From positions 1 through 64,000 of the forward strand of contig NZ_JAJQQZ010000001.1 in the NCBI RefSeq assembly GCF_021729015.1: 64,000 bases of DNA, given 5' to 3'. This DNA is from Halobacterium rubrum. GTDB lineage: Archaea; Halobacteriota; Halobacteria; Halobacteriales; Halobacteriaceae. Below the pieces are notes generated by a model. That model was not told the DNA's origin and made no database searches. It was given only the letters and a program-made list of their open reading frames with translations. Position numbers and translations under genes: made by a program. Shown here in pieces: positions 2,502-6,036 of the stretch (its first letter is position 1; the number at the start of each line of letters is the position of its first letter).

Positions 2502-4262
2502 CTACCGGAGCGCGTCGAGTTCGAACTCGAAGCCGGCGACCGGCACTTCGACGTCGTGGTCGACGATGACCGCGGGGTGGAGTTCGCCGATGACGCCAAC
2601 CGGCTCGCCGTCGATCTCGACGGTGGCAGCGCGCCCGTCGATGAACGACGGGTGGTCGGTCGGCGGGGTGGCGAGGTCGACGTGGAACTCGTCGCAGAGT
2701 GCCTGCAGGCGCGCTTTGGCGTCCTCGTAGGAGGCGTCGTGGCGCGCGAGCACGGCGGCGACGGTGCGGCGTTCGGCGACGCCCGTCTCGGTGTCGCCGT
2801 CGGCGTGAGCGGCGAAGCCGACTTCGGCGAGTTCCTGCGGGTAGGAGTGGTGCGTGTTGTTCTCCAGGACCATCGCGAGCGAGGGCAGCGCCCACGTGCG
2901 GAGGATGGTGAAGTCCTCGCTGTAGGGTTCGGAGATGGTGGCTGGCTCCGCAGCCCCCACCGCGTCGTCCTCGTCGGGCGACAGCCGCATGCGGTCGAAG
3001 TTCTCCGCCTCGCTGGTCATGTTGAAGTTCAGGAGGTCCTCGAAGCCGAGGCCGACGAGCGTCCCGCGGACGGAGCGTTCGAGCCGCGAGGACTCGGTGC
3101 GGCCGCCGATGGTGTTGACGTCCGGGTAGCGCGGCTCGAGGTCGTTGAAGCCGTACGCGCGCCCGAGGTCGTCGACGACGTCGACGGGGTGCAGCACGTC
3201 GACGCGGTACGGGGGAATCTCGACGTCGTAGCCGTCGTCGACCGGCGTGGCGTCGAGCCCCGAGCGTTCGGCGAGGTCGACGACGTCGTCGGTGGTGAAG
3301 TCGACGCCGAGCAGCGTCTCGATGCGGTCGTGGGTGACGTGTTTGGTGCGGACCGCGAAGTCCGGCCGGTGGAGCTCCCTGTCGGGGTAGTCGACCGTGA
3401 CGTCCTCGATGGTGGCGCCGCGGGCGTCCAGCGCGTAGCAGATGATGGCGCACATGCGGTCGAGCGTCCACTGGTCGGTGCCAGTGAGTTCGACGAACAG
3501 CTCCCGGGAGTCGGTGGTGACCTCGGTGCGCCGGCCGTTGATGACCGGCGGGAAGCTGAACAGCCCGATGGCGTCGTAGATTGCGGGGTAGGCGTCGTAG
3601 TCCGCCAGGAGGTCGGCGTAGGTCTCCCCGGTCGGGTGCTCGGAGAGGACGTCGGCGGGCGTGCGTTCGGCGTCGTCGTCCAGTGGGACGAACGTGTCGC
3701 CGTCGGGCTCGACGCTCGTGTACGTGATGGAGCGAGTGGCGGCGCCGTCGCCCTCGGTGTCGACGGCTTCGCTCGCGGTTTCACCGCTCGCGCGTTCGGT
3801 GGCGCTGCGCGCCACCTGCCCCTTGAGCATCGCGAGGTCGTGGATGCCGATGGCGCCCTTCGCGCGCTTGCGGCCCATCGTGGCGTGCAGCTTCTCCTGG
3901 AGCTGGATGAGCGAGTCGAGCGCGTCCTCGTCGAGGTCGACGCCGCGAATCACGGCACCGGTGACGTACGGCCGATCTTCGGGGACGTCCTCGACGTTGA
4001 TGGTCCACTCCGGGCTGTTCGTGTCGGGGACGTCGACGCCGCGGTCGTCGCCGTAGTGGTAGCGCAGACTGCGTGCGATGCCCTCGACGGAGAGCCGGTC
4101 GAGGCGGTCGGCCTCGAACTCGAGTTTGAAGTCACCGTCCTCGGTCTCGCCCTCGTACTCGATGCCGAGGCCGAAGAGGTCCTGGCGGAGGTCGTCGTCG
4201 TCCTTGTCGCGGTGGCCGGTGAGCCGGCGGAGTTCGTCGGGGTCGACGTCGACGACGGGCAT
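2502..4262 (-). CDS. pheT: Phenylalanyl-tRNA synthetase beta subunit
   Basis: A 586-residue archaeal-type PheT. With PheS it forms the heterotetramer that charges tRNA-Phe; PheT carries the B3/B4 editing and B5 domains. Visible are MPVVDVDPDELRRLTG at the start, GAVIRGVDLDEDALDSLI, IGIHDLAMLKG, and the B5-like HVTHDRIETLLGV and DVLHPVDVVDDLGRAYGF. The start ATG overlaps the pheS stop (TGATG), so translation is coupled. Residues about 149-164 (ARSATERASGETASEA) are a coding palindromic repeat inserted between conserved blocks. Convergent with pyrD. Confidence 0.97.
   Translation of the reverse strand: MPVVDVDPDELRRLTGHRDKDDDDLRQDLFGLGIEYEGETEDGDFKLEFEADRLDRLSVEGIARSLRYHYGDDRGVDVPDTNSPEWTINVEDVPEDRPYVTGAVIRGVDLDEDALDSLIQLQEKLHATMGRKRAKGAIGIHDLAMLKGQVARSATERASGETASEAVDTEGDGAATRSITYTSVEPDGDTFVPLDDDAERTPADVLSEHPTGETYADLLADYDAYPAIYDAIGLFSFPPVINGRRTEVTTDSRELFVELTGTDQWTLDRMCAIICYALDARGATIEDVTVDYPDRELHRPDFAVRTKHVTHDRIETLLGVDFTTDDVVDLAERSGLDATPVDDGYDVEIPPYRVDVLHPVDVVDDLGRAYGFNDLEPRYPDVNTIGGRTESSRLERSVRGTLVGLGFEDLLNFNMTSEAENFDRMRLSPDEDDAVGAAEPATISEPYSEDFTILRTWALPSLAMVLENNTHHSYPQELAEVGFAAHADGDTETGVAERRTVAAVLARHDASYEDAKARLQALCDEFHVDLATPPTDHPSFIDGRAATVEIDGEPVGVIGELHPAVIVDHDVEVPVAGFEFELDALR
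3770..3817 (-). repeat. In-frame double-hairpin repeat inside pheT
   Basis: On the coding strand: an 8-bp perfect stem with a 3-base loop (arms 3798-3805 and 3809-3816), a 10-base linker GAACGCGCGA, then GCGGT-GAA-ACCGC (arms 3775-3779 and 3783-3787). It encodes ARSATERASGETASEA. The order stem, linker with CGA, stem, and the reading register match copies inside the two XPD-like helicases. Confidence 0.75.
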
Positions 4263-5770
4263 CAGTACACCACCTCCGCGTCCCGCAGGAACTCCACGTC
4301 ACACAGCGTCCCGTGGACGTCGCGGATGTCCTCGAAGCCGGTCATCAGCATCAGCAGCCGCTCGAGTGCGAGCCCCCACGCCATCACGTCGGCGTCTACG
4401 TCCAGCGGTTCCAGCATCTCCGGCCGGAAGATGCCGGAGTTCCCGATCTCGATGAGCTCCCCCGTCTCCGGGTGGCGGCCGAACAGCTCGAAGCTCGGCT
4501 CCGTGTAGGGGTTGTAGGTGGGCTTGAACTGGAGGTCGTGGATGCCGAACTGGCTGTAGAACTCCCGGAAGGTCCCCATGAGGTCGCGCACGGAGAGGTC
4601 GTCGGCAACCACCAGGCCCTCGATCTGGAAGAACTCCAGGAGGTGGGTGGCGTCGAGGGTGTCGTTCCGGTAGGCTTTCTCGACGCTGAAGTAGCGGGCG
4701 GGCGGTTCGACGTCCTCGTCGGCGACGCCGGCGAGGTGGCGGGCGGTGAGACTCGTCGTGTGCCCGCGGAGTGCGAGCGCACGCGCGAAGTCCTCGTCCC
4801 ACGGCGAGTGGTAGCCGTCGCCGTCTGGGCTGACGCCCTCGCGGTGCGCGCGCTCGACGCGCTCGACGAGGTCGGCGGGCAGCGAGTCGATCTGCTCCGG
4901 GTTCGAGAGCGCGAACCGGTCCCAGTGGTTCCGGGCCGGGTGGTCCTGGGGCATGAACAGGCAGTCGTTGATGTAGAAGTCGGCGTCGACGTGGGGGCCT
5001 TCCATCTCCTGGAAGCCCATCCCCACGAGGACGTCTTTGACGCGTTCGGCGGCCTGCCGGAGCACGTGGGTCTTCCCGGGCGTGTGGTCGGCGGCGTCGG
5101 CTTCGACGTTGTAGTCCGCGAACTCGACGTCCTGCCACTCGCCGGAGGCGAGCAGCTCGGGAGTGAGTTCGCCGACCTCCTCGGCCGCTTCGACGCCGGC
5201 CATCAGTTCCGTGACGCCGGCCTCGGTGAGCGTCACCGACCGAACGGTGCGCTCGCGGACGTTCACGAGGTCGCGGCTCGCGAGCTGGTCGAGGACGGCC
5301 TGGTCGTCGACGCTGCCGCCGTCGGCGAGCGTCGCGAGCGCGTCGGCCTCGGGGTCGCTGTCGGGGTCGGCGTCCGGGTCCGCCGAGAGTTCTCCGGAGT
5401 CGATGGCGCCGTACCCCTTCCGGGCGTAGTTCGACAGCGCGATGTCGACCTGCGGACCCTCGAGCCCGGAGGCGCCGATGACCTGCCCCATCTGGACGGG
5501 AGATTCGTCGGCGCCCGCGTCGAGGGCGGCCCGGTACAGCCGGACCTCGGGCAGGCCGTCGGCGGCGTACTCGCGGCCTTCGTCGGTGAGCGATACGTCT
5601 GCGGTGCTGGCCTCGCTGACGGCGACCAGCCCGGCGTCTTCGAGTTCGAACGCCGCGCCGGCGACCGTCTCGGGCGGATACTCCGTCTCCGCCGCGAGGG
5701 CCTCGATTCGTCGGGGGTCGTCGGCGCTCGCCGCTTCGAGCACCGCGACCTGCTGTGCTGGGAGTTGCAT
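4262..5770 (-). CDS. pheS: Phenylalanyl-tRNA synthetase alpha subunit
   Basis: A 502-residue catalytic subunit that activates Phe and charges tRNA-Phe. The first about 150 residues are winged-helix-like (MQLPAQQVAVLEAAS onward), as in archaeal and eukaryotic PheS. The class II core shows HPARNHWDRFAL, RYFSVEKAYRNDTLDATH, FELFGRHPETGELIEIGNSG and motif 3 MAWGLALERLLML. The ATG at 5770 is preferred over longer in-frame extensions because homologues begin with this helix. A weak proximal TATA-like GATAAC lies near 5797-5802, but the main promoter may be about 190 bp further upstream, before a Phe-rich leader ORF. Confidence 0.96.
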   Translation of the reverse strand: MQLPAQQVAVLEAASADDPRRIEALAAETEYPPETVAGAAFELEDAGLVAVSEASTADVSLTDEGREYAADGLPEVRLYRAALDAGADESPVQMGQVIGASGLEGPQVDIALSNYARKGYGAIDSGELSADPDADPDSDPEADALATLADGGSVDDQAVLDQLASRDLVNVRERTVRSVTLTEAGVTELMAGVEAAEEVGELTPELLASGEWQDVEFADYNVEADAADHTPGKTHVLRQAAERVKDVLVGMGFQEMEGPHVDADFYINDCLFMPQDHPARNHWDRFALSNPEQIDSLPADLVERVERAHREGVSPDGDGYHSPWDEDFARALALRGHTTSLTARHLAGVADEDVEPPARYFSVEKAYRNDTLDATHLLEFFQIEGLVVADDLSVRDLMGTFREFYSQFGIHDLQFKPTYNPYTEPSFELFGRHPETGELIEIGNSGIFRPEMLEPLDVDADVMAWGLALERLLMLMTGFEDIRDVHGTLCDVEFLRDAEVVY

Positions 5771-5879
5771 GTCGTGTAGGCGTGCGTGGGAGTCAGTTAT
5801 CGGTTCCGAACGACCGCGGCCCGACCGCGTGGTTTCGGCCGCCCCGGCGCGCCAGCGCCCGGGCGGCGTCCGCCACGCG
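5771..5879 (-). promoter_or_regulatory. Candidate attenuator hairpin and pheS leader
   Basis: Between the Phe-rich leader ORF and pheS lies a GC-rich hairpin, arms 5839-5850 and 5855-5866 with a GCCA loop and one C-C mismatch. Further on, the transcript sequence GTTCGGA (5805-5811) can pair with TCCGAAC at 5948-5954 near the leader start. The same partner can instead pair with GGGTTCGGA at 5898-5906, which contains Phe codons, so the pairings are mutually exclusive. No U-tract follows the hairpin, so whether it acts on transcription or translation is open. Confidence 0.55.
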
Positions 5880-5960
5880 TCAGGCGTCGAAGAAGAATCC
5901 GAACCCGGGACGCGCGGCTGGCTCGCGGCTCGTACACCCGGCGTAGGGTTCGGACGCCAT
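5880..5960 (-). CDS. Phe-rich leader peptide of pheST
   Basis: A 26-codon ORF with the C-terminal sequence GFGFFFDA: four Phe in the last seven residues, read as TTC GGA TTC TTC TTC. It opens at ATG 5960, 28 bp after a TATA-like run (5984-5992, GTTTTTGG on the minus strand), so a leaderless message starting at this ATG is likely. The stop is 14 bases before a GC-rich hairpin and 110 bases before pheS. The layout mirrors bacterial leader peptides such as the one for E. coli pheST. It could instead be a chance ORF, but the residue bias, position and promoter spacing agree. Confidence 0.6.
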   Translation of the reverse strand: MASEPYAGCTSREPAARPGFGFFFDA

Positions 5961-6036
5961 ACTCTGGGCGACGAGGCCTCCGGCCAAAAACGTTCCGTCG
6001 AGAAGGGGCGGTCTGGGGGGAGGAGGGAGGAGACGA
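5961..6036 (-). promoter_or_regulatory. Promoter of the pheST leader
   Basis: On the minus strand CGGAACGTTTTTGGCC gives a purine-rich BRE-like CGGAAC followed by a T-rich TATA-like box centred near 5988, 28 bp before the leader ATG. The preceding gene ends at 6037. Confidence 0.5.

Follow-up and report, generated by a model that had tools for sequence, protein, structure and literature searches.

Comparative evidence for a structured, cognate-codon leader reading frame upstream of pheST in haloarchaea

Ribosome-sensed attenuation is a founding idea of bacterial gene regulation. In bacteria, pheST and pheA are preceded by transcription attenuators with a leader peptide, pheM and pheL respectively: a short Phe-rich ORF carries a run of cognate codons, and hairpins overlap these codons. 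For archaea, we found no report of attenuation sensed by the ribosome in the open-access literature searched.

The closest archaeal observations come from the mapping of transcription start sites in Haloferax volcanii (PMC4983044). At pheS (HVO_2948), transcription starts 150-250 nt upstream, a uORF of 26 amino acids lies in the 5'UTR, and there is no second start site at pheS itself. Table 2 of that paper (Babski et al. 2016) lists this uORF, with a pI of 5.9 and a mass of 2772 Da, together with one of 23 amino acids (pI 5.4, 2743 Da) before the gene of a Trp--tRNA ligase, HVO_A0127. Attenuation is not mentioned there: the uORFs were not recognised as cognate-codon leaders, and neither their structure nor their conservation was described.

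The locus considered here lies in a stretch of 64,000 nucleotides from Halobacterium rubrum, called the window in what follows, and all positions refer to it. On the minus strand, a promoter-like element P1 is followed by a short leader ORF, a large GC hairpin, a second promoter-like box P2, pheS and pheT; the ATG of pheS is at 5770, and 109 nt separate the leader stop from pheS. The features are:

5985..5997, minus strand: P1, promoter-like (CGGAACG-TTTTTG; CGGAACGTTTTTG), with a T run that begins 30 nt 5' of the leader ATG
5880..5960, minus strand: leader peptide ORF (pheL), 26 codons, leaderless-type start, MASEPYAGCTSREPAARPGFGFFFDA followed by the stop
5946..5955, minus strand: 5' arm of helix I, GTCCGAACCC, within leader codons 2-5
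5897..5906, minus strand: 3' arm of helix I, GGGTTCGGAT, which spans codons G19-F20-G21 plus one base of F22, its first
5889..5897, minus strand: Phe codons 22-24 (TTC TTC TTC), a U-rich tract and candidate sensor codons
5826..5879, minus strand: helix II, with outer stem CGCGTGG/CCACGCG, internal loop CGGAC/CGAAA and inner stem GCCGCCC/GGGCGGC
5793..5808, minus strand: P2, a conserved promoter-like box CGGAACCGATAACTGA with its 3' end 22 nt before pheS, a putative promoter
4262..5770, minus strand: pheS, phenylalanine--tRNA ligase alpha (NCBIfam NF003210 and TIGR00468, above cut-off)
2502..4262, minus strand: pheT, phenylalanine--tRNA ligase beta (NCBIfam TIGR00471, above cut-off)

A preliminary description of this locus had reported the 26-codon Phe-rich ORF at 5960-5880 ahead of Phe-tRNA synthetase genes: its coordinates are correct, and the NCBIfam models confirm the identity of PheS and PheT. 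It had also reported a TATA-like box before the ATG, which is indeed present, at a spacing that needs correction, since the T5 tract starts 30 nt 5' of the ATG and not 28.

The comparison covers PheS loci sampled from 30 relatives, from additional members of the class and from a scan of named genomes, which together yield 177 distinct upstream regions. A short ORF with a terminal Phe run precedes pheS in about 145-150 of the 177, a few assignments being doubtful. The consensus of the leader is M..E(S/P)....GFGFFFA followed by a stop, with examples in Natrinema (MALES..TGFDFFFAR), Halorussus (MPSEP..AGFGFFFA.) and Haloferax (MTTEPVSDGVCVTREPTTDGFGFFFLTA); the form in Halorubrum is reduced (AFEPFFD), and no leader is present in the pheS upstream regions compared from Halarchaeum and Halomicrobium. 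In most species, 75-300 nt separate the leader from pheS.

Three properties of this ORF, taken together, are strong comparative evidence that it is translated. The first is the start: in 140 of 144 loci, the TATA box has its T run starting 29-30 nt 5' of the leader ATG, which is the geometry of leaderless haloarchaeal mRNAs, so that the leader ATG probably opens a leaderless mRNA. The second is the frame: when loci are picked by a DNA motif alone, with no ORF required, the Phe run shares the frame of the ATG, with no stop in between, in 126 of 127 cases, at distances from the ATG that range from 18 to 41 codons. The third is the stop, found 1-3 codons past the last Phe in 139 of 150 loci.

The segment TCCGAAC, at 5954-5948, is matched by GTTCGGA at 5904-5898 and again at 5811-5805, and the preliminary description had proposed that it could pair with either copy. 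The two pairings fare very differently. Pairing with 5904-5898 is part of helix I, 10 bp long in the window (5955-5946 with 5906-5897; arms also written CCGAACCC/GGGTTCGG), and is kept in register across loci with compensatory changes. In 149 loci, nucleotides 8-16 of the ORF form on average 8.42 of 9 possible pairs with the G-F-G codons that precede FFF, against 5.62 or less in any other register, and at least 8 of the 9 pairs are present in 134 loci. Position 13 is C-G in 64 loci, U-A in 62 and U-G in 14: a Pro at codon 5 accompanies GGG, and a Ser mostly accompanies GGA. Paired replacements that change both arms preserve the helix: L078, L101 and L182 combine E>G with F>S, L077, L081 and L104 combine E>D with F>V, P>L occurs together with G>D, and Halorubrum joins P>R to G>A. 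When column 13 is placed on the PheS tree, one arm shows at least 9 changes and the other at least 7; after correction for the tree, 6 supported independent pairs remain, with a mean of 3.7 agreeing and 0 opposing, in a single-column test that has little power. The weight is carried by the several different compensations rather than by this column, and together with the conservation they strongly support a helix between the 5' end of the leader and its Phe-codon region.

The second proposed partner, at 5811-5805, lies within the conserved promoter-like box P2. As a general feature this pairing does not hold: a complement of nucleotides 7-14 downstream of the leader is perfect in about 5% of loci and reaches at least 7 of 8 in 22% (5% when shuffled), versus 77% inside the leader. 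We found no alternative pairing, conserved among haloarchaeal leader loci, that would compete with helix I. Another candidate, in which the CGAAACC strand of helix II would pair with the helix I 3' arm, was rejected by eye: few species are complementary, and the change between GGG and GGA is not followed.

A GC hairpin had been placed at 5839-5866. It exists, as the inner part of a larger hairpin, helix II, that extends from 5879 to 5826 and contains a conserved internal loop. Its consensus 3' of the leader stop is CGG-YGGA-[variable stem-loop]-CGAAA-CCG (core CGG-YGGA..GAAA-CCG), and the covariation is strong: among 60 sequences, double-sided changes are seen at 8 of the 9 predicted pairs, with 9-27 at each of the six inner ones. 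Rfam covariance models, those of bacterial leaders included, gave no match here, apart from a single sub-threshold and unrelated one. Two further ideas about helix II were set aside: its consensus, inspected by eye, does not fit a kink-turn, and a model of it searched in 30 genomes matched mainly pheS leaders, the other matches being weak (E 0.04-0.1), so it does not appear to be a widespread element. In L004, of the Halobacterium salinarum type, the leader is present, the region from its stop to pheS is 75 nt long, and helix II is missing.

The preliminary description had staked its reading on the Phe run and the stems being conserved in relatives, and both are. Chance is excluded, since many haloarchaeal families share the ORF with its start spacing and Phe run as well as both helices; the observation itself is confirmed, and is stronger than had been claimed, while the interpretation that came with it is, as a whole, partly supported.

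The Phe codons appear to have a second role. The first of them, inside helix I, is TTC in 148 of 150 loci. The later ones are TTT in 102 of 396 cases (26%), versus 67 of 1679 (4%) in pheS; restricted to the same loci, the split between TTT and TTC is 53:193 in the leader (53/246) versus 67:1612 in pheS (p=6e-19). In leaders with two Phe in place of three, TTT is at the first position in 24 of 28, and a Val within the Phe run is encoded by GTT in 15 of 15 cases versus 160 of 3332 Val codons in pheS, with the reservation that many of these loci are related and are not 15 independent events. These biases clearly point to Phe codons that double as a selected U-rich tract, which adjoins the 3' end of helix I in an arrangement like that of a terminator. 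Between leader stop and pheS, none of 150 loci has a T run longer than 3, so that the Phe-codon tract is the main T-rich tract downstream of P1; nor did these 150 loci contain a classical intrinsic terminator, hairpin and T run, in that interval. In the leader ORFs of L112 and L116, an in-frame insertion (GFGFRPPKPAAFFAHL) parts helix I from the last Phe codons, and brings a second GC hairpin immediately 5' of TTTTTC.

The archaeal termination factor FttA is reported to prefer U-rich RNA, to which it binds at a distance of 30-36 nt behind the 3' end of the transcript; a coupled ribosome has been proposed to exclude it (PMC11616081). Terminators in Haloferax are T stretches that end at C, some with hairpins, and a T5C tract gives 95% termination (PMC7237163). 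Since a ribosome on the Phe codons would cover the U-rich tract, these properties suggest a choice between termination and read-through. We consider it likely that charged tRNA-Phe is sensed by the ribosome at the Phe codons, and that read-through into pheST is controlled in this way, probably at a terminator formed by FttA and the U tract. Transcription would begin at or next to the leader ATG, and a ribosome would load on the bare 5' end of the leaderless mRNA. If charged tRNA-Phe is plentiful, the ribosome would pass the Phe codons and leave the RNA once it reached the stop codon; helix I could then refold and bury the 5' start region, the U-rich Phe-codon tract would be open to FttA, and most transcripts from P1 would end in the leader. 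Under Phe starvation, with charged tRNA-Phe scarce, the ribosome would sit on the Phe codons and cover the U-rich tract as well as the helix I 3' arm, blocking refolding and termination, and RNA polymerase would continue into pheST. Helix II would pause the polymerase or tune the termination step. The comparison of sequences establishes the anatomy, namely the ORF with its leaderless geometry, frame and cognate codons, both helices and the selection of the U tract, together with cognate codons at three further synthetase genes described below; translation, the response to starvation and its direction, the part of FttA and the pausing at helix II are inferred. Several observations count against the model: TTC TTC TTC, present in 48 of 88 FxFFF leaders and in the window, is a weaker T tract than those of known Haloferax terminators; helix I has no conserved competitor among the loci compared; P2 may supply part of pheST expression; and Halarchaeum and Halomicrobium have no leader.

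Like the bacterial pheM and pheL attenuators, the haloarchaeal locus has a short Phe-rich leader ORF, a cognate codon run and hairpins that overlap the codons. It differs from them in its archaeal promoter, its leaderless-type start, the order of its hairpins, the absence of an Rfam match and of a conserved competing helix, and in the T-rich tract, which is inside the Phe codons rather than in a separate hairpin before pheS. Measured against ribosome-mediated attenuators of the trp, phe and his type, it presents a cognate-codon leader ORF upstream of the gene, as judged from conservation, frame and start spacing, and lacks the intrinsic terminator between this ORF and the gene: it would work like bacterial amino-acid attenuation, minus one classical feature. 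The proposal that a termination factor and a stalled ribosome contend for one stretch of RNA also resembles Rho-linked leader control of the bacterial tnaC type, with FttA in the place of Rho, and charged tRNA-Phe as the signal instead of the free Trp sensed by tnaC.

The main rival retains the Phe-sensing leader and places the control in translation or mRNA stability, the position of the ribosome deciding whether pheS is reached, opened or protected. The lack of a classical terminator between leader stop and pheS would suit it, as would L013 and L051, where the leader stop is just 35-37 nt 5' of pheS and both helix II and P2 are missing. However, the gap in most species is 75-300 nt with no conserved helix that extends to the start of pheS, and selection of T at silent positions (TTT, GTT) speaks for a nucleic-acid signal such as a terminator; we regard this rival as rather unlikely, and retain control of termination as the preferred reading.

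A box like P2 (CGGAACCGnTAACTGA, window 5793-5808) is present in most loci, including some without leader. A conserved promoter-like box directly before pheS means that part of pheST expression may bypass the leader. P2 is strongly conserved, yet Haloferax volcanii has no mapped start there, and it may be a condition-specific promoter. On whether leader and pheS share one transcript, the Haloferax volcanii start sites support the two being transcribed together, and the P2-like box permits an internal start. The same box, present also where the leader is absent, could be taken to mean that the leader is a small gene in its own right, coding for a functional micropeptide, and that P2 drives pheST. 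This we hold to be highly improbable: the middle of the peptide varies in sequence and in length (18-41 codons before the Phe run), the conserved residues are those that form helix I or the Phe/U tract, and Haloferax volcanii has no separate start for pheS (PMC4983044).

The uORFs mapped in that species match the leaders described here by position, by length and, for pheS only, by pI, this being a match of properties and not of compared sequences. The Phe leaders of the Haloferax group have 26 amino acids, with a pI of 5.94 and a mass of 2792 Da in the nearest. In one species of the group, other than volcanii, a leader with the motif WRW has 23 amino acids, 2671 Da and a pI of 6.7, the same length as the uORF before the Trp--tRNA ligase.

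Such WRW leaders precede the gene of TrpRS-2 in 28 of 30 loci, with a perfect helix of 8-13 bp whose arms flank the Trp codons. In the genome of the window, the TrpRS-2 leader MQSALRGWRWRVRGADSLVAAA (L232:1138-1206; G000:C1:310171), with its ATG 29 nt after a T5 box, has a 12-bp helix flanking the Trp codons. Leaders of MetRS that start with GTG and end in MRMQR-like motifs are present in 8 of 30 relatives, and further relatives have remnants; the copy in the same genome (VTRAVDHRRPMRMRA; L343 / L348, G000:C2) has a GTG start and a T5 box 29 nt upstream, and an element resembling helix II, GGGTGGAC...GCGAACCC, was recognised by eye after the stop. At ValRS, the leader MRVxxAVVRV, with an invariant pair of otherwise rare codons, GTA GTA, is found in every locus examined from the Halobacteriaceae (L378-L395) and at a few further loci; in the genome of the window (L340 / L378, G000:C2) it reads MRVGSAVVRV, contains the invariant GTA GTA CGT, lies 30 nt past a TTTAT box and is followed by a TTTCTC tract. 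Most Trp, Met and Val leaders have a promoter box about 29-31 nt 5' of the start, and a TTCTC-like tract follows the leader in 19 of 25 Trp, 6 of 8 Met and 17 of 21 Val loci (2.0, 0.5 and 0.8 when shuffled).

These leaders bear on a last alternative, in which helices I and II bind a protein, for example PheRS, there is no codon sensing, and a hairpin with a U-rich tract yields the Phe codons as a by-product. It would account for the conserved internal loop of helix II, of a kind often bound by proteins, for the clear selection of the U tract, and for the persistence of helix I in L078, L101 and L182, which have lost the first Phe codon. It would leave aside the leaderless start spacing, the frame and the stop 1-3 codons after the Phe run in 139 of 150 loci. 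The leaders of TrpRS-2, MetRS and ValRS carry Trp, Met and Val codons instead, and a by-product is unlikely when the leaders of four synthetases each encode the amino acid of their own enzyme, so that we judge this alternative quite improbable. We lean towards a broader reading of the codon-sensing leader: in haloarchaea, a family of leader peptides with cognate codons, encoded on leaderless mRNAs, would control PheRS, TrpRS-2, MetRS and ValRS, through an archaeal attenuation that opposes the ribosome to FttA-type termination at pyrimidine-rich tracts. If it operates here, archaea use the coupling of transcription and translation for regulation, leaderless mRNAs can act as regulatory leaders, and attenuation arose by the same logic on another termination machinery. 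Haloferax volcanii, with its mapped uORFs of matching length, lends itself to a direct test.

In a quick scan of the genome of the window, we recognised no cognate leaders for Thr, Ser, Pro, Gly, His, Ile, Leu, Cys, Tyr or TrpRS-1, nor at three chorismate-binding genes, and in 1.26 Mb surveyed on the largest contig, a T5 box at the correct spacing from a cognate short ORF occurs only at pheS and trpS-2. Upstream of ProRS in this genome (L335), a mini-ORF with a GTG start, VLVESLQGSSRARGRVPAGA, lies 29 nt past a TTTTTG box and has a single Pro. At G000:C1:520775, the mini-ORF MWEYDWCRTWPAVLIFCSASVLA overlaps by 4 nt the start of a gene for an HTH-10/Bat-like regulator; uORFs before HTH-10 genes are also listed in Table 2 of Babski et al. 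(PMC4983044).
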